This document shows, piece by piece, positions 18,197-64,000 of a stretch of 64,000 nucleotides of DNA (position 1 is its first letter; each line of letters starts with the position of its first letter). A program made the position numbers and the translations under genes. The notes under the pieces were generated by a model. It was not told where the DNA came from. It made no database searches and saw only the letters and a program-made list of their open reading frames with translations. Source of the DNA: Haloplanus natans DSM 17983. GTDB lineage: Archaea > Halobacteriota > Halobacteria > Halobacteriales > Haloferacaceae. The stretch covers positions 2,092,938 to 2,156,937 of the forward strand of contig NZ_KE386573.1 in the NCBI RefSeq assembly GCF_000427685.1. The letters run 5' to 3'.

Positions 18197-20467
18197 TCAG
18201 TCGACGATCACGTCGAAGCGCGCGCCCCCGTCCGCGGCGTCGTCGACGGTGATCTCCCAGCCGTGTGCCCCCACGATGCCGTCGACGATCGCCAATCCGA
18301 GGCCGGTGCCGTCGTCGGTGGAGGAGTGGCCGTACTCGAAGACGCTCGAACGCTCGGATTCGGGGATGCCGGGACCGTCGTCAGCGACGTAGAAGCCGTG
18401 GGCGTCGTCGAGCGATCCGACCCGGACGGTGACGGGCGAGTCGGCGTCGTCGAAGCTGTATTCGACGCTGTCGACGGCTTCGCCGTCTGCCCGAGGGATT
18501 TTTGATCCCTCGCTGTCGTCGGTCTCCGACCGACTGCTCGTGGAGCCGTGCTCCACACAGTTCCGAAACAGGTTCTCGAACAGTTCCTGCAGCCGACCGC
18601 GGTCCGCGCGAATCCGGCCAAGGTCGTCGACGCGGCGCAGTTCCGCCGCACCGGTGTCGACGGTCGCCCACGCGTCGGCGACGCAGGCCGACAGGTCGAC
18701 CGGTTCGACCTCCCCGACGGCGTCGCCACGGCGAGCGAGTGTGAGCAGGTCAGTGATGATCGACTCCATCCGGTCGAGCGCCGTCCCCAGCGGTTCGACG
18801 TGGTCGTCCGGCACGTCGTCGTCGTCCGCGAGGAGTTCGTGTCGCCCGCTGGCGATGGTCAGTGGGTTCCGAAGGTCGTGGGCGACGACGCTGGCGAACT
18901 TCTCGAATCGATCACGTTCGTCGCGGACATCGGACTCCGCCTCGGCGCGGTCGACGGCCGTCGCGACGTGCGACGAAAAAAGGGAGACCAGTTCATGGTC
19001 GTCCTCGTCGAAGTCGCCGGGCTCCGTCGACAGCAGTTGCACGACGGCGCGATCACCGATCGGGGCGCTCAACAGCGATCGATACGTGGGGTCGGCGTCG
19101 GCGGCGACGAGCCGCGACGAGCCGCCCCGAACGTCGGTCAGATCGTCGACCTCGATGGGTTCCCCGGTCCGATACGTCGACCCCGCGAACCCGGCGTCGA
19201 TCGGCTGTGACGGCAGGTTCTCGGCGGCGCCATCGACGGAACTAGCGACCGGAACGAACCGGTCGCCGTCGACGACGGCGATCCGGCAGACATCGGCGCC
19301 GAACACCTCGTGGCCGCCGTCGGCAGCACGTCGAAAAACTGCCTCGGCGGGGCGGGCCGCGGCGAGGTCGTTGGCGACCCGGAGAAGGCGTTCGATCCGG
19401 CGGCTTCGGCGGTCGGCACGGTTCTCGGCGGCCTTCCGGGCCGTGATGTCGTGGAGGATGAGCGCGTAGCCGGTCCGGCCGCCGGTCGACGGGGTCACCG
19501 ACGAGAGCCGAAGGTCGAACACCCGCTGACCGTCTGACGTATCGACGGTCACCTCGGACTGTGTGCGTTCGCCGACGGCGTCGAGTGCCGGCGCGAGCGC
19601 CGGCGCCAGATCGGAGAGCTGCCGGCCGACGGCGTCCGCGGCCGCGTCGCCGACGACCCGCTCGGCTCGCCGATTGAGGTCGACGATCCGGCCGTCGGCG
19701 TCGACCACGATGACGGCGTCGGCCATCGAGTGAAACACCTGATCCCGGGCGATAGGCGTCAGATCCAGCCACTCGAATCGGACGACGCTGAACGCGCCAG
19801 CGACGGCCATCACCGCGGCGGACACCGGTCCGAGGTCGAGTCCCGGAACCGGGGCGTATCCGGCCAGGTCGACGAGAACGGCCGTTCCGGGGATGCTCGC
19901 GAACGACAGCAGGAGGGCGATCTGCCAGCGAAAGCGACCACGCGTCTGTATCGCCGCGCCCGCAAGCAACAGGAACGAGACGCCGAGTACCGCGTAGCCG
20001 ACGGCCGGATAGGCGAAGAAGGCCGGCGCGTACGTGGCGTCGAGCGTCACGAACGAGCCGACCCGGACCAGTTCGGCGTCGGCGAACAGCAGGTGGCGCG
20101 CATCCGGCACCGCCGCGACGGCCACTAGGCTCACGGGAACGAGCAACAGGGCGGCGAACACCCGACGCGAGAGCCACTCGTATCGCCCGGTGTACCAGCA
20201 GACGTACGCCAACCAGACGATAACAAGCGACAGGATGGCGGCGTTCGTGAGCACGCGCCAGAACACCTTCGCCGCGAGCGCCGTGCTCGATAGCTGCGCG
20301 GTGAAGAGAAACACCCACGCCCCGCCGAAGAGCGCCAGGAGGCCACCCAGCCGCATCCCCCCGGTTTCGTCCTCGCGGCCGAGATACCAGAGGGCAACGG
20401 CGAACAGCGACAGCAGTCCGCCGAGGAACAACAGGAACGGGGTGTGTGGGGTCCGTTGCAGGGCCAT
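18197..20467 (-). CDS. membrane sensor histidine kinase (7TM-PAS-GAF-HisKA-HATPase)
   Basis: A 756-residue kinase. Seven N-terminal TM helices span residues 10-230, a histidine-kinase N7TM sensor. A PAS domain lies at about 240-345 (VFHSMADAVIVVDADGRIVDLNR) and a GAF domain at about 355-510. HisKA has the phospho-acceptor H530 in FASVVAHDLRNPL. The HATPase has N-box ELFENLFRNCVEHG (628-641), G1 ADDGPGIPES and G2 DDGTGLGLAIV. Between N-box and G1 is an acidic insert (about 642-677) whose DNA is a row of hairpins. No response regulator is adjacent. Confidence 0.92.
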   Translation of the reverse strand: MALQRTPHTPFLLFLGGLLSLFAVALWYLGREDETGGMRLGGLLALFGGAWVFLFTAQLSSTALAAKVFWRVLTNAAILSLVIVWLAYVCWYTGRYEWLSRRVFAALLLVPVSLVAVAAVPDARHLLFADAELVRVGSFVTLDATYAPAFFAYPAVGYAVLGVSFLLLAGAAIQTRGRFRWQIALLLSFASIPGTAVLVDLAGYAPVPGLDLGPVSAAVMAVAGAFSVVRFEWLDLTPIARDQVFHSMADAVIVVDADGRIVDLNRRAERVVGDAAADAVGRQLSDLAPALAPALDAVGERTQSEVTVDTSDGQRVFDLRLSSVTPSTGGRTGYALILHDITARKAAENRADRRSRRIERLLRVANDLAAARPAEAVFRRAADGGHEVFGADVCRIAVVDGDRFVPVASSVDGAAENLPSQPIDAGFAGSTYRTGEPIEVDDLTDVRGGSSRLVAADADPTYRSLLSAPIGDRAVVQLLSTEPGDFDEDDHELVSLFSSHVATAVDRAEAESDVRDERDRFEKFASVVAHDLRNPLTIASGRHELLADDDDVPDDHVEPLGTALDRMESIITDLLTLARRGDAVGEVEPVDLSACVADAWATVDTGAAELRRVDDLGRIRADRGRLQELFENLFRNCVEHGSTSSRSETDDSEGSKIPRADGEAVDSVEYSFDDADSPVTVRVGSLDDAHGFYVADDGPGIPESERSSVFEYGHSSTDDGTGLGLAIVDGIVGAHGWEITVDDAADGGARFDVIVD
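18473..18556. repeat. four consecutive perfect hairpins inside the kinase ATPase domain
   Basis: Within 84 bp of coding DNA there are four short palindromes: 18473-18487 (GACGGC/GCCGTC, 3-nt loop), 18492-18512 (CGAGGGAT/ATCCCTCG, 5-nt loop), 18518-18534 (GTCGGTC/GACCGAC, 3-nt loop) and 18540-18556 (GTGGAGC/GCTCCAC, 3-nt loop). They encode the N-box end VEHG and the acidic insert that follows. The reading frame is kept throughout. Confidence 0.8.
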
Positions 20468-25237: not shown

Positions 25238-26239
25238 ATGGAACGGTCGTGCGTGCGCGTGCCCCGCGAGGCGGGCGAGGACACCCGACAGGAACTCGCC
25301 GCGGCGGGCCTCCTCGACGACGAGTACGAAATCGTCGGCGACGACGGGCGCCTCTACCTCCCCGTGACCGACGCCGAGGCGGCGAGGGAGGCGTATACGG
25401 TCGTCACCCGCGACGTGCCCGCCCACGATGGACAGGAGACACCGGCCGACCGCCTCGGCTTCGACCCCTCGTACGAACGCCTCGGCGACGTCGCGATCAT
25501 CGACGAGGACGACCCCGAACGGGCGCGCGAAATCGCCGACGCAATCGTCGACTCCGACCTACCCGTCCGGGCCGTGATCGACCGCGCCTCGAAGGTGAAA
25601 GGCGACCTGCGGGTGCGCGACTGGACGGTCGTCGCGGGCGGGGATGGGGACGACCGCCCCGTCACCGAAACCGTCCACCGCGAGTACGGCTTCGAGTACC
25701 GACTCGACCTCTCGCGGGTCTACTTCTCGCCCCGTCTCGCGACCGAGCGCCACCGCGTCACCGAGGGGGTCGAAGCGGGCGAGCAGGCGGTCGATATGTT
25801 CGCGGGTGTCGGGCCCTTCGTCGTCCCGATAGCCGCCCGGGGCGCGACGGTCGTCGGCGTCGACCTCAACCCCGCCGCGATAGAATATCTCCGCGAGAAC
25901 GCCCGCCATAACGGCGTCGCGGACCGCGTGACCGCCATCGAGGGCGACGTGCGCGACGTAGCCGCCGACTACGCCGGGTGGGCCGATCGGATCGTCATGA
26001 ACCTCCCCCACAGCGCCGACGAGTTTCTCGATAGCGCGGTCACCCTTGCCGGCGACGACTGCGTCGTCCACTACTACGACATCCAACACGAGGACGACCC
26101 GTTCGGCCCGGGCGAGCGGGCGATCCGCGAAGCGGCGGCGGCCGAGGGGTACGCGATCGAGGTGCTCACCCGGCACGTCGTCCGGTCGTACGCCCCCCAC
26201 GAGTTGAACGTCTGTCTCGACGTGCGCCTGTCGCGGTAG
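25238..26239 (+). CDS. trm5: tRNA (guanine37-N1)-methyltransferase Trm5
   Basis: Methylates G37 next to the anticodon. The 333-residue protein has an N-terminal D1/D2 region, the motif EYRLDLSRVYFSPRLATERHRV, the SAM site AVDMFAGVGPFVVPIAARGATVVGVDLNPAAIEYL and the catalytic-loop MNLPHSADEFLD. This is the class I archaeal Trm5 order. It lies just upstream of tRNA-Thr. It begins 39 bp after the ABC ATPase stop. Confidence 0.94.
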   Translation: MERSCVRVPREAGEDTRQELAAAGLLDDEYEIVGDDGRLYLPVTDAEAAREAYTVVTRDVPAHDGQETPADRLGFDPSYERLGDVAIIDEDDPERAREIADAIVDSDLPVRAVIDRASKVKGDLRVRDWTVVAGGDGDDRPVTETVHREYGFEYRLDLSRVYFSPRLATERHRVTEGVEAGEQAVDMFAGVGPFVVPIAARGATVVGVDLNPAAIEYLRENARHNGVADRVTAIEGDVRDVAADYAGWADRIVMNLPHSADEFLDSAVTLAGDDCVVHYYDIQHEDDPFGPGERAIREAAAAEGYAIEVLTRHVVRSYAPHELNVCLDVRLSR

Positions 26240-26254
26240 GGGCGTTTCGGAACC

Positions 26255-26263
26255 CTTATTTGA
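26255..26263 (+). promoter_or_regulatory. TATA-type promoter element of tRNA-Thr
   Basis: CTTATTTGA lies about 25-33 nt upstream of the mature tRNA 5' end at 26288, where an archaeal tRNA TATA box is expected. It sits in the short AT-rich gap after the trm5 stop. Confidence 0.5.
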
Positions 26264-26287
26264 ACGATGGCAGTACGACTGTGTAGC

Positions 26288-26360
26288 GCCGGAGTAGCTC
26301 AGCTGGCAGAGCGATTCCTTCGTAAGGAATAGGCCGAGGGTTCAAATCCCTCCTCCGGCT
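26288..26360 (+). tRNA. tRNA-Thr (anticodon CGU), integration site
   Basis: A 73-nt cloverleaf: acceptor GCCGGAG/CTCCGGC with U73, D-arm GCTC/GAGC, anticodon stem ATTCC/GGAAT with loop TTCGTAA (anticodon CGT in DNA), T-stem GAGGG/CCCTC with loop TTCAAAT. No intron and no encoded CCA. A 27-nt near-copy of its 3' part lies at 36193-36219 and marks the other end of an integrated element. Confidence 0.97.
26334..26360 (+). repeat. left attachment repeat (attL, within tRNA-Thr)
   Basis: This covers the T-arm and 3' acceptor strand: CCGAGGG, a 7-nt loop, then CCCTCCTCCGGCT. The same outer 20 bases recur at 36193-36219, with only the T-loop differing at three of seven positions. The tRNA gene is intact, as is usual when the incoming element restores its 3' end. 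Confidence 0.85.
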
Positions 26361-26375
26361 TCCCGCTACGCGGGA
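26361..26375 (+). terminator. hairpin directly after tRNA-Thr
   Basis: TCCCGC TAC GCGGGA is a 6-bp perfect stem with 3-nt loop beginning at the base after the discriminator. It could help end tRNA transcription or 3' processing. There is no long T-run, so the call is weak. The following 190 bp up to the rhomboid gene stop hold no gene I can see. Confidence 0.35.
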
Positions 26376-26567
26376 GGAACTAATTCATAGACAGCGGCGC
26401 TCTTACTTATAGATTCGCCCGATTAGCGAAGACATTTGTTGCTGTCTCGCGGCCTACTTTGCCGGTAGTTGACCCTCTCAATTTGAACCCGTGACGGGCA
26501 CCGCGCTTCGCAGTCGTGCGATTTGAGAAAATGAACTGGCAGACCACCGACGAGTCATCGATTTAAA

Positions 26568-27434
26568 CTACTTATCCGCCGATGAAGTTTGAGTTGATAA
26601 CCGGTTACGGGCTTCTCGATAGCCTTCTACTCCGACAATTCCCGCGATTGGTAGCAAATACCCCCACACATAACCAGCCATATGTCCGTAGATTCCTGCC
26701 GGGGCAGATGGGGGGAACAGTAATTGAAGACCGTATAGATACAGGATAGCCGAACCGAGAAGGAATACTATCGGTGGACTGCCGAGGGCATCAACCGATT
26801 CTTTCAGACGATATGCCATATAGAGCAGAGTAATGATTCCGACGCCAGCGAGGAGACGTATGGAATTATTCAATACTCCGAGATTGTAGAAGGCGACAAA
26901 GAACCCGAGAGAGAACAATCCGAGGGAGATCGGTAATTGTTTGTTTCCGTTGACTATTTCGGCGTGATAGTACGCAATTGCTATCGCTAAGAATCCTGTA
27001 ACGGCGCCAACTGTCTGAGAGAAGCCTACACTTTCAAATCGGGAAATTACCTCGGGGCGGTCAGCGAATATCTCTAAAATGGTCCAACTGGCGAAAAAGG
27101 GCAGTACCAAGAGATACGCAATGAAAGTATATCGATAGATGTGGGCCGATTTGGACTGTCTCATTAGTAGGTAGCCCGCCCCACCGAGAATCCAATATCC
27201 CACGATGTTATTTGAGATATGCGACACACTCCGATGTGCGAGATTCGATCCTACGATACCGAGGACTGTCGGACTACGGGCCTTGTACTCCAATATCTGT
27301 TCACTCTGAGGAAACAAGAATATGAGTACCAGAGCGATTGAGGGAGTAACGAAGAACAATAACACATCCCTACGAATATCGGGATCATTGAGATTTCGAA
27401 TCATCTCACCGGGACTCTGCTCGCTTTCCATCAC
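26568..27434 (-). CDS. rhomboid-family intramembrane serine protease
   Basis: A 288-residue protein with about seven or eight TM helices. The rhomboid signature residues are present in order. HxxxxHxxxN is at H67, H72 and N76 (LAHRSVSHISNNIVG). The serine is in a GxS context at G137-F138-S139 (GFSQTVGAVTG). The second catalytic His is H251 in YGHMAGYVWGYL. It would cleave TM segments of unknown substrates. It is the first gene inside the element, at lower GC than flanking genes. The frame is intact. Confidence 0.78.
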   Translation of the reverse strand: MMESEQSPGEMIRNLNDPDIRRDVLLFFVTPSIALVLIFLFPQSEQILEYKARSPTVLGIVGSNLAHRSVSHISNNIVGYWILGGAGYLLMRQSKSAHIYRYTFIAYLLVLPFFASWTILEIFADRPEVISRFESVGFSQTVGAVTGFLAIAIAYYHAEIVNGNKQLPISLGLFSLGFFVAFYNLGVLNNSIRLLAGVGIITLLYMAYRLKESVDALGSPPIVFLLGSAILYLYGLQLLFPPSAPAGIYGHMAGYVWGYLLPIAGIVGVEGYREARNRLSTQTSSADK

Positions 27435-27935
27435 CTAACATAAGGTCGACACATCACTAATATTTGTGCCAGTTGGCGAGTTCGTAATTGATCTTAAGGT
27501 ATCCCTGCTATCTTGGTGCTTTTCACAGCGAGTCATCAACGAACCTGTGCCGATCAGTCTCGAAGGCTCCCCCACCGAATTCCGATAGGAGGCTCGGCCT
27601 TATTCCTCCTTATAAATGGATACGACTCAAGTTTCGCGGAGGAAAGCGGCGCGGTACTATCAGAGGTCCCCGGCTCGCGGAAGAGTAGCGAGGTGTGCAA
27701 CAGCGTTGTCAGAGTAGAGTTATATACAATTTCTGCGTCTATAAGATGAGGAGAAATGTAGTCGGTTTCTTTGAGGTTCGAATCAGGAGAATTAGCGGGG
27801 TAGAACGACCGATAAGGATATATCTTACTTCTGCGTTGAAGGGAAGGGAGAGAGGTTAGTTCTGCGTTGAAATTCGCGTCTTGAGCCGATAGTATCTCTC
27901 CTCATGTGGTGAAAATGAACAACAGTAGACACTCT
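27435..27935. other. AT-richer intergenic region with repeated TTCTGCGT
   Basis: About 500 bp between divergent rhomboid and helicase-like genes; no convincing gene. The 12-mer TTCTGCGTTGAA occurs at 27829-27840 and 27860-27871, and its first eight bases also at 27731-27738. These could be operator or iteron-like sites. Several AT-rich stretches (for example TTATATAC near 27719-27726 and GGATATATC near 27817-27825) may be promoters. Confidence 0.5.
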
Positions 27936-29761
27936 ATGCGGAAACTCGAAGCGCGCTGAAAACTGCAATTGAGACGGAAGGCCGAACTCTGGTGCCGACA
28001 CTTCCCGCCCTTGGAAAGAGTAAGGGCACGATTGAGGTTCTTGCTGAGATCGGGCAGAAAGCAGTCATCTTCACGGACACGCACAAATTGTACGATCAAA
28101 TCAAGGACAAATGCAAAGAGGAAGGCCTTCGCTACCACGTGCTACCCTCATTCCACAACCATTGTTCAACAGGCGGGAAAGAGGGAGTTAGAGAACACGG
28201 AAGCGAGTGGGCACGCAAGTTCCGCGCTGAGTACAAGAAGGGCCGTGGCGGACGGGAACTGCACGAGAACGCCAAGCGGATCTTCGGAAAGGAACTCCCC
28301 TGCCATTCAACTGATCAATGCGACTATGTGCGCCGTCTTGACTCCAACCTTGATGACTACGACGTTCTCATTGGGAATTACCGGCATATGTTCAAGCCGG
28401 AATACAGCGAATCTCGTATCGTCATTATCGACGAGTTCCCCGGTGATGGTGTTCTAACGACTCTCTCAAGCGACGACGCCAACAATTCTATCCTGCGCTA
28501 CTTGGCGGGTGAAAATTCTCTCCCCTTCATGAGCGCAGAGGACATTCTGATTTACCGGCACAATCTCATCGGACAGACAGACCACGATCCGACTGTCCGC
28601 GAATGGTTGTCGGGAGCAGAGGGAACAACGTTTGAATCAGTGAGTTGGCATCGTGAAGGTCGGAATCCAAACGTTACGGCATATGGGTCGCTACTGGTGC
28701 GTGCGGCTCTTGAAGACACGAAACTCGCTGATGGGTGGAGTCAGGCCGTGTTGTTGGATGAAACGGTCATCGTTCGAAGTCCGGCAGGCAGGGTGCATAT
28801 TCTCCCACCGCTTCCCTTCGGTGAAGACACTAACATTGTTGCTCTTGATGGGACGCCGTCGTTCGAAATGTGGCGTGCCGTACTCGGAGATGAGTTAGAA
28901 TACCTTCCCGTTCTCAGCGAGGAAGAACAACGAGAATGGCTCGATCATCTCGGATTGCGGATCATTCAATTATCCGAGACCACAATTCCGGTTTTCGGGG
29001 ATCGGAATGAGCCGCAAACGGACTATGCTCTCATCGAGGAAATCACTCGGCGTGAGGGAATTACCCCCTTCGTAGTCACTTCTACGAATGGGTTTGGAAA
29101 CCTCCGCCCGTTCGAGTCGGACGAATTAGTGTGGGAAGGAGAACATTACGGGAATCTCAAGGGTAGAAACGATTTAGACGGTCGTAATCCTGTCCTGATT
29201 ATTGGGAGTCCACAGCAGAGCGACCTTGTGATTCAGAAATGGGCAGCACTCAGGGGACACTCAGCGGCCCGAAGGAAGGACGAACGCGGGAACATCCTCA
29301 GAGGAACAAACTTGGACTTCGGACCAGTTGGGAACGAAATCCTACGCAGCACTCGTGAAAGTGAAGTTCTGCAAGCGGCCATGCGTTTCAGCCGGGAGGT
29401 CAGGGACGAAGAGATTCGCGTGTACGTCTTCTCGTGTGCTATCCCTGAATGGGTCGATCCCGAAGTTTGGCACACAGAGATCAAACGATGGGACGACGGA
29501 AAAGGAATGAGTCAGGTAGTCAATGCGTTGACGCACGGCGCTGAGTGGAAAACTGCGAAAAGAGCAGCGAAACAGATCGAAGGTGTAGTTGAGGAGTTAT
29601 ATGGTGACGATGGAATCGGTTATGATCAGATTCTAAAGCATCTTAAGAGACTTCACGAGGAGTACAATCTAATTCGGTGCGAGGGTAATCGGCCCCTTGT
29701 CTGGTCCAACCTTCGACTTGAAGAGCGTGGGAAGCACAGTATTGTCTCTCTTCGAGAATAG
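27936..29761 (+). pseudogene. SF2-helicase-like protein with a start-proximal frameshift
   Basis: The long frame opens at 27929 and runs to 29761. From GTG 27992 it gives 589 residues. Motifs numbered from that GTG: Walker A-like LPALGKSKG (GKS 8-10), DEFP box 147-150, TATP-like ALDGTPS (284-290), motif VI-like QAAMRFSR (461-468) and a C-terminal winged-helix-like end. Starting at 27992 leaves nothing before the Walker A. ATG 27936 gives MRKLEAR then TGA, but removing one GC from the GCGCGC at 27951-27956 joins it in frame to LKTAIETEGRTLVPTLPALGKS. So the gene is probably frameshifted by dinucleotide slippage, or the sequence has an error. Substrate and role unknown; replication or defence are possible. 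Confidence 0.65.
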
Positions 29762-30255
29762 ACTAATTTGACTACGTCCTATACTACATATAGGGAAATA
29801 TCAAATTACGATATTCATTACTCCAAACGTTACTCACAGATGTTTGAAAGAGGAAAGGCGGCTCGACACAGGTAAACCGGGATACAAACTGGTCGTGTAG
29901 CAGCGGTAAATACCAGTTTTGTGTGAAGCCAGTAATCACCGTCAGGGCAACAGTAGTGAGCGACTTTCTTGCCCCTCTCGGAGCGTCCACGCTACCGGTT
30001 CCCGAGACTTCTCCTGTCGGAGTGCAACACGCCGGTATGCGAGTTATCGAGCCGTTACAGAGCAGGAGCGGCGTTCCTCGTTCGTTCTGACCCCCCTCCT
30101 CCGAAATCCCATTGGGACCAGCCGAAAATCAGGTCAAATTCTGAGCGGGTTACTTCGCTATGCAGACGGGCGAGACTGACCGTGTCGCAACTACCCACCG
30201 TGCCGCCCGCCTTTCCTCCTCAAAGCATGTATGCGCGCCCCGAACGTAGTCACCG
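29762..30255. other. intergenic region, no gene recognised
   Basis: About 490 bp between the helicase-like gene and the winged-helix gene. Short open frames exist on both strands, but none shows a domain, a plausible start signal or haloarchaeal composition. The first 150 bp are AT-rich and likely hold the 3' end of the helicase transcript. I see no repeats of note. Confidence 0.5.
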
Positions 30256-30501
30256 TCACTCGTCAGGTGGGTCAGGCCGCCACCATACGACTGCTCGACC
30301 ACCCACCTTCTTACGCTTGAGATCGCCGCGCTCCTCTAAAGCGGTCAATTTGTTGTACGCAGTCCGACGCACAATCCCCAACTCCTCGGCTACTTCCGAC
30401 GCCGTCCGTGGTTCGTGATCGATGAACACAGCAAGCGCGTCGTCGGGCGTCACCTCCTCGGTGTACGTGCCTTTGTCACTCCGCCTTCTCTCTTCGCCCA
30501 T
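30256..30501 (-). CDS. small winged-helix transcriptional regulator
   Basis: An 81-residue protein that is essentially one winged helix: DDALAVFIDHEPRTASEVAEELGIVRRTAYNKLTALEERGDLKRKKVGGRAVVWW. The recognition helix (VRRTAYNKLTAL) is basic. Such single-domain regulators are frequent on haloarchaeal plasmids and proviruses. It is divergent from the SWIM-domain gene. A 9-bp inverted repeat in the gap (30544-30552 with 30585-30593) is a candidate operator. Confidence 0.8.
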   Translation of the reverse strand: MGEERRRSDKGTYTEEVTPDDALAVFIDHEPRTASEVAEELGIVRRTAYNKLTALEERGDLKRKKVGGRAVVWWRPDPPDE

Positions 30502-30543
30502 TAGTACGGGATACTCCGGCGACTACGATGAGTGTTCTGCCTA

Positions 30544-30593
30544 TTCCTACGAACACCACCGGAACGCTTATCTCCTATTCCGTCGTAGGAATT
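30544..30593. promoter_or_regulatory. inverted repeat between winged-helix and SWIM genes
   Basis: ATTCCTACG (30544-30552) and CGTAGGAAT (30585-30593) form perfect 9-bp arms 32 nt apart, with a TTATCTCCTATT promoter-like stretch between. The location in the divergent gap fits a two-site operator for the adjacent winged-helix protein. Confidence 0.55.
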
Positions 30594-30680
30594 GGTGAGA
30601 AGAACGGTTCCCTCGGGGCGAGTGAAAGCGTCCGGGTGGTGCAACACCCGGAGCCGGCTTCTCATAGGAGCAAGAAGCCA

Positions 30681-31145
30681 ATGGCAACCAACGAAACCAG
30701 TCGGCAAAAGACTGCTGTTGAGTATCTGAATTTCGGCGCGAAGACGGCCAAGCGCGTGACGTGGGAAGCGTGGTCTTTCCGGTTGGTCGGCCCGCTCCAA
30801 GTCTTAGTGACGAACGAATCCTACGGGGTCGAGAAGGACGCACACGCCTACGTGGTGGCCGTCGAGGACATGGGCGGAGTGATTGTACCCCGAGAGTGTG
30901 AATGCCCTGCTGACCGATTCAGGGACGACTACGACTGCAAGCATAAAGTCAGTCTGGCGACGGTTGGCGGGCGGGTAGTGATGGAAGCGGCGGCGGCCTT
31001 CCCTGAGAAATCACTCGAATCCTCGAACCCTGTTGAGCGCATCCCGGTAGCTGATGGTGGCCGTCCGGAAAATCAAAAGTGCGAGTGCGAAGAGTTGGGT
31101 GGACTACCATGCTGGTCGTGCTATTCATCTGAGAACATCATCTAA
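30681..31145 (+). CDS. SWIM zinc-finger protein
   Basis: A 154-residue protein from ATG 30681 (MATNETSRQKTAVEYL). An upstream in-frame ATG at 30528 would read through the inverted repeat and is less likely. The SWIM motif CxC...CxH is at C73, C75, C86 and H88 (ECECPADRF...DCKH). A second Cys-rich cluster closes the protein (CECEELGGLPCWSC). SWIM domains bind DNA or protein; haloarchaeal elements often carry such genes. The function here is unknown. Confidence 0.78.
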   Translation: MATNETSRQKTAVEYLNFGAKTAKRVTWEAWSFRLVGPLQVLVTNESYGVEKDAHAYVVAVEDMGGVIVPRECECPADRFRDDYDCKHKVSLATVGGRVVMEAAAAFPEKSLESSNPVERIPVADGGRPENQKCECEELGGLPCWSCYSSENII

Positions 31146-31194
31146 CTCAAACAAGACCCCTGCAAAATATTTGCATCCGGTCTAATCACGGACT

Positions 31195-32121
31195 ATGGCG
31201 TCTGACTCATCTACGATCACATTTTTTCTCCCTGTAATGGTATTAGTAGTGATCGAAATATCACGTATTGCCAGAGATATTGATTTAAAAAGGGTCGCTA
31301 ATGAGGGCCACAGGCTTCTGTTGATATCTGGTATATTTCTTCTGCCTGCAAAAATTTTCAAAGTTGTTCTGAATATAATATTCCAATTTGTGAGATATCA
31401 AACATCAAATGTGATGGGTGCGATCATCAGTCCATTTTCATTTATTAGACGTATCATTAATATTGAGATCAAAATACTTGAGAGAATTGCCAATATCGGA
31501 GGAGAACGGGTGAATTCGGAGGTTGGCACAGAAAATCTTGTCCAATCTTATGAGCAGGGCGCAGAGATTGTAGAGCAGTATCAATTACGCATAAATAAGG
31601 CTCATGAATTGATTATAGCCAATATAGACGAGTTAGAGCGACAAATTTTGGACAAAGTTACTCAATTTGAACAGGTTCTTGCTCCGCCTATGGGACGATT
31701 CGGGTTTCTGCATACGACGAATTATATCATTCTCGCGTATCTATTTCTCCTTTCATTCAATAATCGATCAAGTCAGATACGGATAATTTCGTTATCTATC
31801 GTTTCGTTGATTTGGTTAGTTTTACCGACATTAGAAGTCCGACAGTATGATTTTCTTCTTAAAGAAGACAAGCCAGTAGACTCGCTATTTTACCATATTT
31901 TAATAACAGGCATTCTATTAGTCACGCTATGGGTTACGATCCCGGAGGGACTTCAACAGCCAATCCCTGACTACCAGATAGTTATTGGATCATTCAGTTA
32001 TCAGCCTCCGTACCTGACGATACCATTAAGCGCAGGAATCATCGCTGTTTGGTCCTTTCTGAGAACATTATATAACGAAATGAGAGATAATGGAGTTATG
32101 GAGCCGGTGACTGCGTCATAG
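31195..32121 (+). CDS. AT-rich multi-pass membrane protein of unknown function
   Basis: A 308-residue protein not recognised. Two N-terminal hydrophobic segments (about 8-25 and 40-66) are followed by a charged, heptad-like stretch (about 80-165, with RINKAHELIIANIDELERQILDKVTQFEQ). Four more TM helices follow (about 172-190, 196-213, 232-250 and 273-292). Its GC is far below that of the chromosome and its codon use is unlike its neighbours, so it was probably acquired from a non-haloarchaeal or viral source. A long cytosolic coil between membrane segments resembles toxin or sensor effectors only in outline. Confidence 0.65.
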   Translation: MASDSSTITFFLPVMVLVVIEISRIARDIDLKRVANEGHRLLLISGIFLLPAKIFKVVLNIIFQFVRYQTSNVMGAIISPFSFIRRIINIEIKILERIANIGGERVNSEVGTENLVQSYEQGAEIVEQYQLRINKAHELIIANIDELERQILDKVTQFEQVLAPPMGRFGFLHTTNYIILAYLFLLSFNNRSSQIRIISLSIVSLIWLVLPTLEVRQYDFLLKEDKPVDSLFYHILITGILLVTLWVTIPEGLQQPIPDYQIVIGSFSYQPPYLTIPLSAGIIAVWSFLRTLYNEMRDNGVMEPVTAS

Positions 32122-32134
32122 CCAAAGTATTCTG

Positions 32135-32142
32135 GTTCAAAC
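32135..32142. repeat. target-site duplication, left copy (8 bp)
   Basis: GTTCAAAC directly abuts the left terminal inverted repeat of the insertion sequence, and the identical 8 bp follows its right end at 33083-33090. Confidence 0.9.
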
Positions 32143-33082
32143 GGCTGTGTTGAATCGCTATATGGCGGTGGAATTCACTGTTTCACAGCTCGCTTGATGT
32201 TATAGACGACACACATCAGCGCGATTTCTCGGAACTCACGGAACCAGGAACGCGCTCGCACGGCGAAGCCGAGCGAGCGCTTCACAGCCGAGTTCACGGT
32301 CTCGGTCATCGAGCGCTGATTGTAGCGCTGTTCGTCGATTCTGGCGTTGTGCGCGTGATCATACGGTGCGAAGATGCGATGTTTGATGAGCGGGCGAATC
32401 CCGAGGTCACGAAGGGATTCGCGGAGCGACTGCTTGTCATAGCCTTTATCGGCGGCAAGAGACCGCAGATCGCCCGCGTTTCGGCGGGCGATCTGCTCGG
32501 CGAGATCTGCGTCGCTTCCGTCCCGAGTCGTCGAGCAGTGAACGTCAAGGATGGCTTGAGACTCTGTATCGACGAGTTTCGTGACCTTCAGCTTCTGGAC
32601 GCGGTAGCTTATTCGCTGGCAGTAGTGGCGGCTCGCAGCTGAGCGTTCGTAGAATGTCGCGTCGATCGCGCCGTGTTTCGAGGGGTCATGCAGCTGCGCC
32701 GATTGGCGCAGCAGCACTCGGCAGACGCTCATACTGATCCGGTCGAACGCTTTACACAACGTGGATGGTGAGGGGAGATCGGCCGCGCTGAGGCCGATCT
32801 CCCCGGTTATTTGTGGCATCTCTTTGAGCAGGTCAATCGTCATTCGGTAAGACGTGTCAAGGTAAATCCGCAGACAGTGGAGAGAAACGAGGGCATAGTC
32901 GGCGAATCCGCCGCCACCTTCCGGGGCGGCGGATTCGTCTCCATCACCGGTAACAACTTGGGCAATCGGCACAATCTCACCAGTGAAGCGGGAGATTTGT
33001 GTCATAGGCAACCGAATCTCTCCGCTTCAACTCCTTTGATTTAGCGACCCATCCCGACGCCGTCTAGTGATTCAACACAGCC
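32143..33082 (-). mobile_element. IS5-family insertion sequence (ISH1-like), 940 bp
   Basis: The ends are 18-bp inverted repeats with one mismatch: GGCTGTGTTGAATCGCTA at 32143-32160 and TAGTGATTCAACACAGCC at 33065-33082. The element is flanked by 8-bp duplications GTTCAAAC. It holds a single intact DDE transposase gene. An 8-bp duplication and one ORF fit the ISH1/IS1031-type branch of IS5. It landed between genes and breaks none. It looks recent and potentially active. Confidence 0.92.
32175..33011 (-). CDS. IS5-family transposase
   Basis: A 278-residue DDE transposase. Catalytic residues are visible in GAIDATFYERS (first D), SLAADKGYDKQSLRESL (second D) and RYNQRSMTETVNSAVKRSLG (E in the conserved Y-(2)-R-(3)-E-like helix). 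The N-terminal part has a helix-turn-helix-like LPSPSTLCKAFDRISM. The protein fills the insertion sequence and has no frameshift. GC is higher than in the flanking element DNA, suggesting a separate arrival. Confidence 0.93.
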   Translation of the reverse strand: MPMTQISRFTGEIVPIAQVVTGDGDESAAPEGGGGFADYALVSLHCLRIYLDTSYRMTIDLLKEMPQITGEIGLSAADLPSPSTLCKAFDRISMSVCRVLLRQSAQLHDPSKHGAIDATFYERSAASRHYCQRISYRVQKLKVTKLVDTESQAILDVHCSTTRDGSDADLAEQIARRNAGDLRSLAADKGYDKQSLRESLRDLGIRPLIKHRIFAPYDHAHNARIDEQRYNQRSMTETVNSAVKRSLGFAVRARSWFREFREIALMCVVYNIKRAVKQ

Positions 33083-33090
33083 GTTCAAAC
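33083..33090. repeat. target-site duplication, right copy (8 bp)
   Basis: GTTCAAAC immediately after the right inverted repeat, identical to 32135-32142. Confidence 0.9.
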
Positions 33091-33175
33091 ACATTATGTA
33101 GAGAGTGATAGCCTTTGGTGAAATCCATGAGAGTCCATGCCGTTCACGGATGTTCTCCCGAAAACTGCTAATCCT

Positions 33176-33445
33176 TCACCAACGTCGTTCAGATACGAAC
33201 CACTCACCATCTTCCCAAATCAACCGCCATCGAAATTTGGGCTTAGTGGATACAATAAGATAGGTTGCGACCAATTCACTACCTCGCTTCTCGGAGTTCA
33301 GTACGCCAACCCCATTCACGCCATCCTGCTCACGCAGAGCCACAACCTGATCTTCGTTCGGTGGCTGTTCGGGTAACTCAACCTCAAAATCATCCGGCCG
33401 CTTTCCGAGAGCGTAGGTTACCATTTCCGAGGGATATACGGTCAA
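33176..33445 (-). CDS. hypothetical small protein in operon with a nuclease-like gene
   Basis: An 89-residue protein, unrecognised. It is acidic, with a predicted beta-rich end (ELVATYLIVSTKPKFRWRLIWEDGEWFVSERRW). Its ATG is 4 nt after the stop of the upstream nuclease-like gene on the same strand, so the two are probably co-transcribed and could form a pair (for example nuclease and partner). That relation is inferred from spacing only. Confidence 0.5.
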   Translation of the reverse strand: MTVYPSEMVTYALGKRPDDFEVELPEQPPNEDQVVALREQDGVNGVGVLNSEKRGSELVATYLIVSTKPKFRWRLIWEDGEWFVSERRW

Positions 33446-33449
33446 ATGT

Positions 33450-34106
33450 TTATCTGGCTAACTCGTCTACTGTACGGTAGTGATTCACCATACTCATAGT
33501 AAGCACTCGTCCATCAATTACTACTAACTGAGCGTCGTCTTCGGGTAAATCATACGTGGACGAGTCAGTACCAGATGTGTTCTCTTTCTGCACTATGACC
33601 GAGTCTTCATCCTGTACTTTGATATTGTCTATAGTTCGGATGATCGCCTCGCGTATTTCTTGCTCTGCCTCTTCTTTGTTCTCTAAGTCAGTTTCATCCA
33701 ACCAGAGAACATCCCAACCTCTACTGTTTAATTCAGCCTCTTTTTGCTCTTCTCGTCCATCATTCACTCCCCATAGATAACTCGCGTGCGGTTCAATTGC
33801 TAACCTGATCGGTGGGAAGGCAAAGTCAATCCGGTATTTCGTACCACTTGGTATGTACTGTTTTTCGAATTGACCTGTTTCAAATCCGATTTCGTTGAGT
33901 ATTGATTCAGTCGTCTGTTCGAGCGAGGTATCTTCAAGCCGCATTGTATATTGTTTGTCGCTGAAAGAAGCCTGCTCCAAGATCAGTTTCGTCCCTCTAC
34001 TGTTAGTCCATACGTCCCCTACACTCACACCCATTGCTTGGAATATATGCGGAGGAAAAGAGCATCCGGGTCGCAGTTGTTCCTTGGTAGGATTAGCCTT
34101 CACCAT
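33450..34106 (-). CDS. DUF559/Vsr-like restriction-fold protein
   Basis: A 218-residue protein. Residues about 90-150 have the order expected of the PD-(D/E)xK (DUF559/Vsr) fold. There is YRIDFAFPPIRLAIEPHASYLWG (D, then E with a following His), then a Lys-rich helix REEQKEAELNSRGWDVLWLDETDL. The last segment is the typical 'R-G-W-V-L' strand. The N-terminal 80 residues are a separate beta-rich part that may recognise DNA or a modified base. It might act in defence or in element maintenance. Confidence 0.6.
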   Translation of the reverse strand: MVKANPTKEQLRPGCSFPPHIFQAMGVSVGDVWTNSRGTKLILEQASFSDKQYTMRLEDTSLEQTTESILNEIGFETGQFEKQYIPSGTKYRIDFAFPPIRLAIEPHASYLWGVNDGREEQKEAELNSRGWDVLWLDETDLENKEEAEQEIREAIIRTIDNIKVQDEDSVIVQKENTSGTDSSTYDLPEDDAQLVVIDGRVLTMSMVNHYRTVDELAR

Positions 34107-34198
34107 CTTGAGCGTGTGAATGGCCCTCTTGCCAATATACTAAAAAATTAGCAGAGATGAGGACTGAGGGAAAATCAGAGTGGTGTGTACCCCGCTTC

Positions 34199-34378
34199 CT
34201 ATACGTCCTGCAAGAACCGCCTCCGAACTTCCCGCTTCTCACTCTCGGTACGAGCATCGTAGTTCTTGTCAAGCACCTCTCGACTCACGTTCGTCCGCTC
34301 GGCAGTCACATCAACCGGCTGGCCCGCATTCAGAGCCGCCGTGATGTACCCCCGCCGAAGTGTATGCGGGCTTTTCGA
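34199..34378 (-). pseudogene. C-terminal remnant of a second tyrosine recombinase
   Basis: The segment encodes SKSPHTLRRGYITAALNAGQPVDVTAERTNVSREVLDKNYD, clearly the HxxR and Tyr-containing end of a tyrosine recombinase. It closely parallels the intact integrase (SPHALRRGYVTAARNAGQPKDVTGERANMS...LDKHYD). The catalytic core upstream is missing; the frame continues to 34480, but that part is not similar. It is a leftover of an earlier or second integration event. Confidence 0.8.
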
Positions 34379-34410
34379 AAACAGTTTGATCAACTCCCAC
34401 AGAGGTTCGG

Positions 34411-34536
34411 CGCGCTTTCCTGCTCGACACATCCGAGGATAAGCGCCAAACCGCCTACTATGCCAGCGCGAAATTCTCACAACAAGTGGAGCGACTTACT
34501 CTGTATCTCGATCAGCGGCGGCTGACGGTGTCATAG
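34411..34536 (+). pseudogene. possible gene remnant on the opposite strand
   Basis: Reading + strand from 34411 gives RAFLLDTSEDKRQTAYYASA, then KFSQQVERLTLYLDQRRLTV and TAG at 34534-34536. The sequence is protein-like but has no start and no family I recognise. It abuts the recombinase remnant, so the junction looks like fused gene ends. Low confidence. Confidence 0.3.
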
Positions 34537-34615
34537 CCTTGGGGGAGCAAATGTAGTCCATTAGTTTCCCGTTGGCTGACTCTGTTACCGAAGAAACTCG
34601 GCCACTTTCGGAAGG

Positions 34616-35068
34616 CTACTGCGAGACGTTATACAGATCAATCCTCGCCTCATCACGGAGAATATCGCTGTTAACGTCCTCAATGAACTGCCTATAGTGC
34701 GATTTCGCCGCTCTACAACAGATAGCGCAATGTGTTTGAAAAGAATCAGGAAGGGAGATTGTATCACCGCTGACCTTGATTTCTGATGCGTTTCTCAGCG
34801 CCCACTCATAGACCAACGCTTGCCCAATTGCTTTTTTATTGAACTTATCCTTAACCTCAATAACACTAATAATCGGTTGCTGATTGGTTCTCTGTGACAC
34901 ACATAGGAGATCGACACGCTCATGCACGAATGCGGGTGGCACTTCGACAGAACGACTGGCAGCCTGTATTGAGGCTTCTTCGTACCATTGGACGACTCGC
35001 AAGCCCTCTGACTCCATCACTTGTTCAACCCGATCTTTACAGAGAGGTTTCAGGTCTGATTCCTTCAT
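34616..35068 (-). CDS. PD-(D/E)xK nuclease-fold protein
   Basis: A 150-residue protein with a recognisable nuclease core: VHERVDLLCV (D), then PIISVIEVKDKFNKKAIGQALVYEWAL, where E-V-K matches the (E)xK and the helix with Q/Y follows. The conserved pattern D-x(~18)-ExK plus a QALxYExA helix is shared with Holliday-junction-like and restriction-type folds. The C-terminal part is helical. It probably cuts or binds DNA; the biological role is unknown. It lies just downstream of the integrase within the element, same strand. Confidence 0.65.
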   Translation of the reverse strand: MKESDLKPLCKDRVEQVMESEGLRVVQWYEEASIQAASRSVEVPPAFVHERVDLLCVSQRTNQQPIISVIEVKDKFNKKAIGQALVYEWALRNASEIKVSGDTISLPDSFQTHCAICCRAAKSHYRQFIEDVNSDILRDEARIDLYNVSQ

Positions 35069-35136
35069 GAGAAGTTCCTCTCTTCACAGACGAAAAATAG
35101 GTACCCGATAAAAAGGGTTAGATGAACTGAAATCCA

Positions 35137-36141
35137 CTAAATATCTCGTAGATAGTCCTTCCTCCGCTCCGCCTTCTCCGCTGCTGAACCCTTGTCGTAG
35201 TGCTTATCCAATATCCGACCACTCATATTCGCTCGCTCACCCGTCACGTCCTTGGGCTGACCCGCGTTCCTTGCGGCAGTCACGTATCCTCGACGTAGTG
35301 CGTGGGGCGACACGGAAGCGGGACAACCATACGCGGCGTTCCACTCGTTGTGTTCGCACGTCTCAGGGTCTTTCTCAACCGGACAACTGCCACCGTAGAA
35401 GCAGGGGCGAGTCGCCGTGTAGACCATCCGCTGAATGCTCGTGCGTGCCCTGCGTCCGTGGCGCGTCGTCAGAAGCGGTCGCCTGCCGTGGTCGTCGGTC
35501 ACGTCGATCCGAGTCTCTGCAATGTAGTCAGCAATCACCTCCGCCGTCTCGGGCGTGATCAGCACGTCGCGCTCGCCGCGTTCTTTCTTTTTTAACGGAG
35601 TACCGGACTCGGGACGGTGTCGAATCTCAAGCGCCGGGCGTCCCTCATCGAAGTCTTCAACGTCGAGTGCCCGAAGCCCGCTTAGACGCATCCCTGTCTT
35701 CCACAGAATCAGGATGATAATGTGGCGGTCGCTCGCGTAGGAGAACTTCGAGAGGTGATCGAGGATTGCCACGGCTTCCTCTCGGGTGAGTAGATCGTCG
35801 CAAATCTCGTCCGAGGGATCGGTCTTCGGGATACGAACGAGTTCGCCAAGCCCCGTAGGGACGGCCTGTATCGTCTCACAGAACTCCACGAACTGCTTGA
35901 TGGTCCGTAGGTCGTTCCGGGCCGTGATCCGCGCCACCTTCCCTGTTCGAAACTCTCTGTACCGCTGAATGGTATCTGAGTCGAGTTCGCGCAGGTCGTT
36001 GGTGCCGTAGTCGGTGAGCCAGTCGCAGAACTGCCGGAGTGTCGTCCCGTAGTTGTAGATCGTCTTGTCGGAGACTTCGGCTTTCTTGTCTTTCAGATAT
36101 CGGTTCATCGCTTCGTGGGGAGGGGTTTGTTTCAGTCTCAT
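35137..36141 (-). CDS. tyrosine recombinase (integrase) of the tRNA-Thr element
   Basis: A 334-residue XerC/D-type recombinase. The N-terminal SAM-like core-binding domain (YLKDKKAEVSDKTIYNYGTTLRQFCDWL) is followed by the catalytic domain with R in LILWKTGMRLSGLRALDVEDF, HxxR in SPHALRRGYVT and the nucleophile Tyr in ILDKHYDKG. A Cys-containing insert (CFYGGSCPVEKDPETCEHNEW) precedes the HxxR. It starts 51 bp from the right att repeat and reads inward. It most likely drives integration at tRNA-Thr. All catalytic residues are present. Confidence 0.93.
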   Translation of the reverse strand: MRLKQTPPHEAMNRYLKDKKAEVSDKTIYNYGTTLRQFCDWLTDYGTNDLRELDSDTIQRYREFRTGKVARITARNDLRTIKQFVEFCETIQAVPTGLGELVRIPKTDPSDEICDDLLTREEAVAILDHLSKFSYASDRHIIILILWKTGMRLSGLRALDVEDFDEGRPALEIRHRPESGTPLKKKERGERDVLITPETAEVIADYIAETRIDVTDDHGRRPLLTTRHGRRARTSIQRMVYTATRPCFYGGSCPVEKDPETCEHNEWNAAYGCPASVSPHALRRGYVTAARNAGQPKDVTGERANMSGRILDKHYDKGSAAEKAERRKDYLRDI

Positions 36142-63366: not shown

Positions 63367-64000
63367 ATGGTCGAGGAACCCGACGCCAACCCGTACGTAC
63401 ACGATCCGGACACGTCGTTCGCGCCGGCCGACGAACTGAGCGAGGACGAGGCCCGCGACCAGGTGTCCGACCTGCGTGTGGCCGTCGAGTATCACGACTA
63501 CCGCTACTACGTCGAGAACGATCCGGTGATCGCCGACCGCACCTACGACGAACTGTTCGAGCGCCTGCAACGGCTGGAGGACGCGTTCGACCTGCACGAC
63601 GAGAACTCGCCGACCCAGCGGGTCGGCGGCGAACCCCTGGACGAACTGGAGACGGTCGGCCACGTCGCGCCCCTGTTGAGCCTGCAATCCTCCGGCGACA
63701 GCGAGGAGATTCGGGCGTTCGACCGCCGCATCCGCGACCGGGTCGGCGACGTCGACTACTCGGCCGAACCCAAGTTCGACGGCTTCTCGATCGAGGTGGT
63801 GTACGAGGACGGCGCCTTCGACCGCGCCGTCACCCGCGGCGACGGCCGCGAGGGCGAGGACGTGTCCGCGAACGTCCGAACGATCGGGAGCGTGCCCCTG
63901 CATCTCCCGGCCCCAGCCCCCGAATTCCTCGCCGTCCGCGGCGAAGTGTACATGCCTCGATCGGGGTTTCAGGCGCTGAACGAGCGACGGATCGAACGCG
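63367..64000 (+). CDS. ligA: NAD-dependent DNA ligase LigA (3' end outside window)
   Basis: The first 211 residues are seen. The Ia domain ELSEDEARDQVSDLRVAVEYHDYRYYVENDPVIADRTYDELFERLQ binds NAD. The adenylation site is SAEPKFDGFSIEVVYEDGAF with K136 as nucleophile. TRGDGREGEDVSANVRTIGSVPLHL and FLAVRGEVYMPRSGFQALN follow. Haloarchaea are the archaea that carry bacterial-type LigA, acquired by transfer. The APC permease is divergent, 87 bp apart. C-terminal Zn, HhH and BRCT domains lie beyond the window. Confidence 0.95.
   Translation, partial: MVEEPDANPYVHDPDTSFAPADELSEDEARDQVSDLRVAVEYHDYRYYVENDPVIADRTYDELFERLQRLEDAFDLHDENSPTQRVGGEPLDELETVGHVAPLLSLQSSGDSEEIRAFDRRIRDRVGDVDYSAEPKFDGFSIEVVYEDGAFDRAVTRGDGREGEDVSANVRTIGSVPLHLPAPAPEFLAVRGEVYMPRSGFQALNERRIER

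Follow-up and report, generated by a model that had tools for sequence, protein, structure and literature searches.

A palindromic DNA repeat with coding capacity dispersed in Halobacteria, and four adjacent hairpins in a histidine kinase gene

The Rickettsia palindromic elements (RPE) and the Wolbachia palindromic elements are short palindromic repeats that lie in frame within protein genes; in each case these genes belong to a single clade, are unrelated to one another and are presumably functional (PMC2229807, PMC3733652, PMC2996958). The RPEs are given as 105–146 bp long with long stem-loops (PMC2229807), and the short RPE-4 and RPE-6 repeats have also been described (PMC3733652). A palindromic repeat with coding potential that is fused into protein genes was reported for Methanocaldococcus jannaschii (Suyama, Lathe and Bork 2005, cited in PMC2996958 and PMC2229807). 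REPs are described as short hairpins, often paired and multicopy, some of them inside ORFs (PMC3733652). According to the same source, they are located mainly between or downstream of genes and carry GTAG or CGTC tags, and those with GTAG are tied to Y1 transposases (PMC3733652). Short acidic inserts have been described in haloarchaeal enzymes, for example in the CysRS of Halobacterium (PMC3787623).

The histidine kinase gene studied here contains four adjacent hairpins. These very probably represent one palindromic DNA repeat in two tandem copies, a repeat that codes for protein, is dispersed in Halobacteria and behaves comparably to the RPEs. The likeness is one of behaviour and lies in the in-frame dispersal in unrelated genes. 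Unlike the RPEs, the haloarchaeal unit is a 45-nt double hairpin that can be expanded in tandem, and it occurs in an archaeal class. The M. jannaschii repeat, as the citing papers describe it, is likewise archaeal and coding, but it comes from a different lineage and one species is named. The haloarchaeal units differ from REPs and REPINs in that they are mainly intragenic, have GACAG and GRCA linkers (in the hand-picked units) and do not correlate with Y1. Halophilic acidic insertions are treated at the protein level in the source cited above, whereas the haloarchaeal unit is defined at the DNA level. What is new compared with the RPE kind is the 45-nt double-hairpin unit, its tandem growth, its class-wide archaeal range and the maintenance of the palindrome at synonymous sites; in-frame dispersal was already known. 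No haloarchaeal report of an equivalent coding palindrome was found in the open-access literature, which omits most subscription journals.

The window is the whole 64-kb stretch of Haloplanus natans DNA that was analysed, and positions refer to it. The features of the kinase gene are as follows.

18197..20467, minus strand: histidine kinase gene (7TM, PAS, GAF, HisKA, HATPase_c), from Pfam and the ORF
18540..18556, minus strand: A hairpin of unit 1, GTGGAGC(acg)GCTCCAC, with the N-box residues VEH coded by its 5′ arm
18535..18539, minus strand: linker GAGCA (consensus GRCA)
18518..18534, minus strand: B hairpin of unit 1, GTCGGTC(gga)GACCGAC
18513..18517, minus strand: linker GACAG
18492..18512, minus strand: A hairpin of unit 2, CGAGGGAT(caaaa)ATCCCTCG
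18488..18491, minus strand: linker GGCA (consensus GRCA)
18473..18487, minus strand: B hairpin of unit 2, GACGGC(gaa)GCCGTC
18468..18472, minus strand: terminal linker GACAG
18512..18563, minus strand: unit 1 (type I), 52-nt span of the covariance model (63.7 bits, E 4.1e-15; contig positions 2111449–2111500)
18467..18518, minus strand: unit 2 (type II), 52-nt span of the covariance model (64.8 bits)

A preliminary description of this DNA had reported four perfect hairpins at 18473–18556, and all four were recovered with the same stems. The perfect inverted repeats are located at 18473–18487 (stem 6 bp, loop 3), 18492–18512 (8 bp, loop 5), 18518–18534 (7 bp, loop 3) and 18540–18556 (7 bp, loop 3), that is, with stems of 7, 7, 8 and 6 bp in the coding order of the minus-strand gene. 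Translation of the stretch gave VEHGSTSSRSETDDSEGSKIPRADGEAVDS, the end of the N-box plus an insert preceding G1, which agrees with the peptide described earlier. The two tandem units code VEHGSTSSRSETDDS (type I, unit 1) and EGSKIPRADGEAVDS (type II, unit 2), each with flanking residues. With 28 stem bp in 90 nt, this was the densest cluster of perfect hairpins in the window, and the next separate cluster had 20. None of 2000 synonymous-codon shuffles of the kinase gene (maximum 22) and none of 2000 codon-order shuffles (maximum 25) reached this value. Four hairpins in a row had been thought improbable by chance, and both codon-shuffle controls ruled out a chance origin. The folding z of the stretch was −4.3 as RNA and −4.7 as DNA, and 0 of 200 shuffles were equally stable in either case.

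The unit is 45 nt (15 codons) long and consists of an A hairpin of 19–21 nt, GRCA, a B hairpin of 15–17 nt and GACAG. This grammar was read from the hairpins in 57 matching loci and recurs in many of them, with a repeat step of 45 nt. Between copies, the stem letters differ and the linkers are constant. The covariance model was built from 18 hand-picked and hand-typed units, the flanks of which were partly idealised. The linker serines, at two positions, were encoded by AGC or AGT in 114 of 114 codons, compared with 34% of the serine codons in the surrounding genes; this bias is descriptive, the covariance model itself favouring AGC/AGT. Similar kinases of other haloarchaeal lineages (locus L277) have a 48-nt, 16-residue repeat, VEHGSTSPRSQARGDA, after the N-box.

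The pairing of the A hairpin was tested with a search defined by the peptide, which avoids selecting for hairpins. The motif N-x-V-E-H-G-S-T with free synonymous positions was searched in 97 genomes, and 150 matches were listed. The third bases of Val and Ser were complementary in 126 of these 150 listed matches versus 69 expected (OR 75), and those of Glu and Gly in 122 of 150 versus 72 expected (OR 44). Three non-partner control pairings showed no effect in the same 150 matches. The synonymous covariation persisted among 85 distinct sequences. In 86 distinct matches of the covariance model, 1182 Watson-Crick pairs were counted along with 18 G-T, 18 A-C and 38 other mismatches. The palindromes are kept at synonymous positions, and the palindrome is a property of the DNA level because these positions covary without a G-U preference. 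The preliminary description had also considered a role of mRNA structure. A hairpin element that regulates or stabilises the kinase mRNA would agree with the RNA folding z of −4.3, but G-T mismatches are not in excess over A-C mismatches (18 each), and like units occur in unrelated genes and are missing from most orthologues examined. We rejected an RNA element on the G-T/A-C symmetry, and give this explanation almost no weight.

The spacing between the N-box and G1 was compared in 80 chosen kinases (42 with a broken pair and 38 intact), of which 78 had a recognisable G1. At short spacing (12 of 78), the two pairs were found at about chance level (6/12 and 5/12). At longer spacing, they were found in 49/66 and 45/66 (Fisher p 0.027 versus short for both pairs). 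A second stem of at least 6 bp was present in 44 of the 66 long inserts, compared with 8.8 expected from synonymous resampling, and was missing in 22. The preliminary description had asked whether inserts always contain hairpins; the 22 long inserts without a second hairpin are exceptions, which we read as decayed copies. These data also bear on the idea that the arrays exist for their protein, as acidic, disordered linkers that halophilic adaptation or kinase regulation has favoured, and that the palindrome merely results from this. That idea would fit the use of a single hydrophilic acidic frame, and peptide insertions have been described as a known halophilic trait (PMC3787623). However, the peptides differ (VEHGSTSSRSETDDS, EGSKIPRADGEAVDS, EGRSPSGNRTQSGDS) yet the palindrome stays, and both the synonymous covariation and the excess of second stems (44/66 versus 8.8) speak against it. 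We consider selection on the peptide an unlikely source of the arrays. If the arrays are instead copies of the dispersed DNA repeat, the peptide they encode would most probably be an insertion that is tolerated at the protein surface and has hardly any specific function, if any.

The 91-nt stretch used as a DNA query matched 41 places in its own genome at E ≤ 10, of which 16 (own site included) had E of about 0.001 or better. It also matched in 12 of 12 genomes of the genus, with a best E of 2.4e-5 or better in each. These matches came as modules and not as the whole stretch. The covariance model gave at least 61 matches in the own genome at E ≤ 1 and at least 48 at E < 0.01, which are lower bounds with 150 of 8655 candidates scored. 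The genome samples comprised one genome per species. The class sample comprised 292 genomes from 77 genera, and 269 of these genomes and 73 of the genera had matches. Across the phylum, 294 genomes were sampled and 47 of them matched at E ≤ 0.001; 46 of the 47 were the own genome or belonged to the same family or order. One matching genome outside the class (G431), from another family of the phylum, had 13 weak matches (best E 4.9e-6), which are either chance or a related repeat. A degenerate exact pattern searched against the GTDB contig collection returned 17 stretches, all from Halobacteria (Haloplanus, Halorubrum, Natronomonas, Halobellus, Halolamina, Salinigranum, Halohasta and another member of the Halobacteriales). 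The element is a multicopy palindromic DNA repeat dispersed class-wide in Halobacteria.

A wide, multicopy distribution could also arise from REP/REPIN-like elements if a Y1 (RAYT-like) transposase of the IS200/IS605 type recognised their hairpins in single-stranded DNA and moved them in trans. The paired hairpins and their short, conserved linkers recall REP dimers, and Y1_Tnp is frequent in the class, with matches at E ≤ 1e-10 in 65 of 97 genomes. The number of Y1 genes did not follow that of the element, however, with a Spearman coefficient of 0.07 (p 0.50) over the 97 genomes, the elements being counted among at most 20 matches listed per genome. Y1 was not matched at E ≤ 1e-10 in four genomes (G017, G020, G022 and G026) with 16–19 element matches, whereas another (G025) had 7 Y1 and no element match. 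The unit has GACAG and GRCA linkers and not GTAG or CGTC tags, and most classified copies are intragenic. We rejected Y1/RAYT mobilisation for the lack of correlation over the 97 genomes, and rate it as quite improbable.

The genomic context was classified for 136 distinct places (48 from the own genome and 88 from the class, one duplicate dropped) with a simple codon-usage gene caller made by us. There were 110 intragenic sense copies, all in one reading frame, 3 antisense copies (one strong, L246, and two weak, 22–28 bits) and 23 intergenic copies. The hosts identified by Pfam include MsrB, iPGM, DapB, a Hel308-like helicase, CobD/CbiB, GcvT, a P-type ATPase, NUDIX, CBS, a tRNA synthetase and kinases. 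The repeat is present in unrelated genes in one frame of the sense strand. Of the six frames, five were free of stop codons in 60 or more of 66 units and the remaining one in 40. The used frame alone is acidic (mean net charge −1.7) and poor in hydrophobic residues; each of the others encodes a basic, neutral or hydrophobic peptide. Given this difference between the frames, selection on the peptide suffices to account for the use of a single sense frame. The intergenic share (23/136) is smaller than expected if one coding frame in six survives; this deficit may be related to a bias of the model toward coding units or to faster decay between genes.

The preliminary description had suggested an in-frame palindromic element tolerated in a surface loop. 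The in-frame element is supported by the common frame of 110/110 sense copies, the many unrelated host genes and the empty sites in orthologues, while the loop placement found no backing in the structural models, which are of low confidence. The AlphaFold model of MsrB had a mean pLDDT of 57, lowest in the insert region (about 33–42), and that of the kinase ATPase region a mean of 42, too weak to place the loop. One CBS-domain protein (L067 and L078) has unit-like inserts at a seemingly equivalent turn (VV...DDG..VGIV) of both CBS domains. In another protein family, the unit lies between similar flanking peptides in six genomes (L205, L209, L232, L244, L247 and L252, in G063, G043, G036, G045, G046 and G015), which is either an old insertion or a hotspot.

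Orthologues of the host genes showed filled and empty sites. The 15-residue insert of iPGM (phosphoglycerate mutase) was exactly absent in 9 of 11 orthologues of the genus; in the other two the site was occupied by diverged inserts, one of 15 and one of 14 residues. Of 10 Hel308 orthologues, 8 were without the insert; one close relative had 12 residues, its B hairpin being shortened, and another orthologue had a diverged 12-residue stretch. The MsrB insert directly follows the conserved GWPSFYD and was absent in 10 of 11 orthologues. In the eleventh (L144 of genome G008), the site at which the own genome has one unit is filled by three 15-residue units in tandem, DST/HGSTGNQTTSGDA. The B hairpins of these three units are identical, ACCAGAC(aac)GTCTGGT, versus ACCGGAC(ggg)GTCCGGT in the own copy, which is a compensatory difference. 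Tandem growth therefore extends beyond kinases. The DapB insert was found in 3 of 11 sequences (own genome, G006 and G007), G008 had a remnant resembling the A hairpin, and 7 of 11 were without it. In orthologues of the window kinase, the span from ENLFRN to DDGPG was 70, 76 or 109 aa; in the longest, one 15-residue repeat occurs four times in tandem. There are thus empty sites in orthologues, and copy number differs at one site in the kinase and in MsrB. Insertion at the filled sites is deduced from which species have the unit and which do not, and the other species may instead have lost it. The MsrB and DapB inserts, which recur at the same site across species, and the diverged iPGM inserts are either shared old insertions or signs of hotspots.

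Direct repeats at the junctions, read by eye, were GAC in Hel308, 10 nt in MsrB and about 25 nt in iPGM, the last covering host codons that were already unit-like. Comparison of these three junctions by eye gave no common rule and no clean target-site duplication. In comparison with MITEs, the 45-nt units showed no TIR beyond the hairpins and had the junction repeats of GAC to about 25 nt, and five copies lie inside a separate MITE-like repeat of about 360 bp. The latter repeats are intergenic and occur at five places on one contig (C7) of the own genome (L080–L084), with up to about 350 bp at 94–99% identity. They have long terminal inverted repeats, each holds one hairpin unit, and one of them (L082) has an additional nested insertion.

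The distance from the N-box to G1 ranged from 24 to 119 residues in the chosen kinase set, with a period near 15. The 15-aa period had p 0.0014, and p 0.012 when taken as the best of the periods 10–20. Variation in insert length, already suspected at the outset, was seen among species in 15-aa steps, in the orthologue spans, the kinase length period and the MsrB triple. Units of the same genome were more alike than units of different genomes (identity 0.784 versus 0.707 for 46 intragenic units; 0 of 2000 label permutations), and the same was seen inside one genus (0.826 versus 0.740, p 0.0005). Related paralogous kinases add to this likeness, which supports copying inside genomes but is no proof of it.

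Slippage is likely the mode of tandem growth. Whether purely local slippage at the kinase N-box, where the VEHG codons are self-complementary, could explain everything with no dispersal to other genes is another matter. Many of the strongest copies and of the 45-nt tandem arrays are indeed in kinases, but the same grammar occurs in many non-kinase genes, including the MsrB tandem triple, and the N-boxes of the short-spacing kinases pair at about chance level. Kinase-only slippage as the sole cause is contradicted by the non-kinase hosts, and we judge it very improbable.

For the dispersed repeat, we propose that new copies arise from existing arrays by short-homology copying. The hairpins would seed this copying, be it template switching or gene conversion, and its targets would be GAC-rich codon stretches. 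Hairpin-primed copying of this kind is favoured because Y1 does not track the element and the junction repeats vary in length. Arrays would then grow and shrink by slippage in 45-nt steps, often after the kinase N-box VEHG, the codons of which themselves form the A hairpin. The complementarity of the arms may be maintained by quasi-palindrome correction at the DNA level and not by selection on RNA, and purifying selection would spare the sole frame that codes a hydrophilic acidic peptide. A wider picture is offered tentatively, as one that may well prove wrong: a coding palindrome that is ancient, class-wide and still proliferating might, through copying primed by its hairpins and with no transposase of its own, furnish core enzymes and sensor kinases with acidic modules of 15 residues. 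Intrastrand correction would preserve the palindrome as the peptide drifts, and the element would so be a self-repairing source of in-frame protein loops.

These results suggest that a DNA repeat, with a structure that persists regardless of the peptide it encodes, supplies one archaeal class with short peptide insertions that are in frame and compatible in charge. Some of the haloarchaeal "insertion peptides" may derive from this repeat, and so may much of the variable stretch that separates the N-box from G1 in haloarchaeal histidine kinases. Questions on coding selfish DNA, such as the origin of copies, the single frame and the function of the peptide, become testable in genetically tractable haloarchaea. 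Annotation and alignment call for caution, as VEHGST... repeats can mimic conserved protein motifs but are shaped by DNA.

Two other regions of the window were recorded. The next densest hairpin cluster, at 63808–63877, has three perfect stems with 20 bp in total within an apparent gene, and gave no strong match to the 45-nt unit with the covariance model. The region 26001–36000 has a G+C of about 0.51, compared with about 0.66–0.73 on either side. Seven ORFs were scanned there, which comprised a DDE transposase (32175–33011), a phage-type integrase (35137–36141) and five ORFs without a Pfam match, and the region is probably an acquired integrated element.
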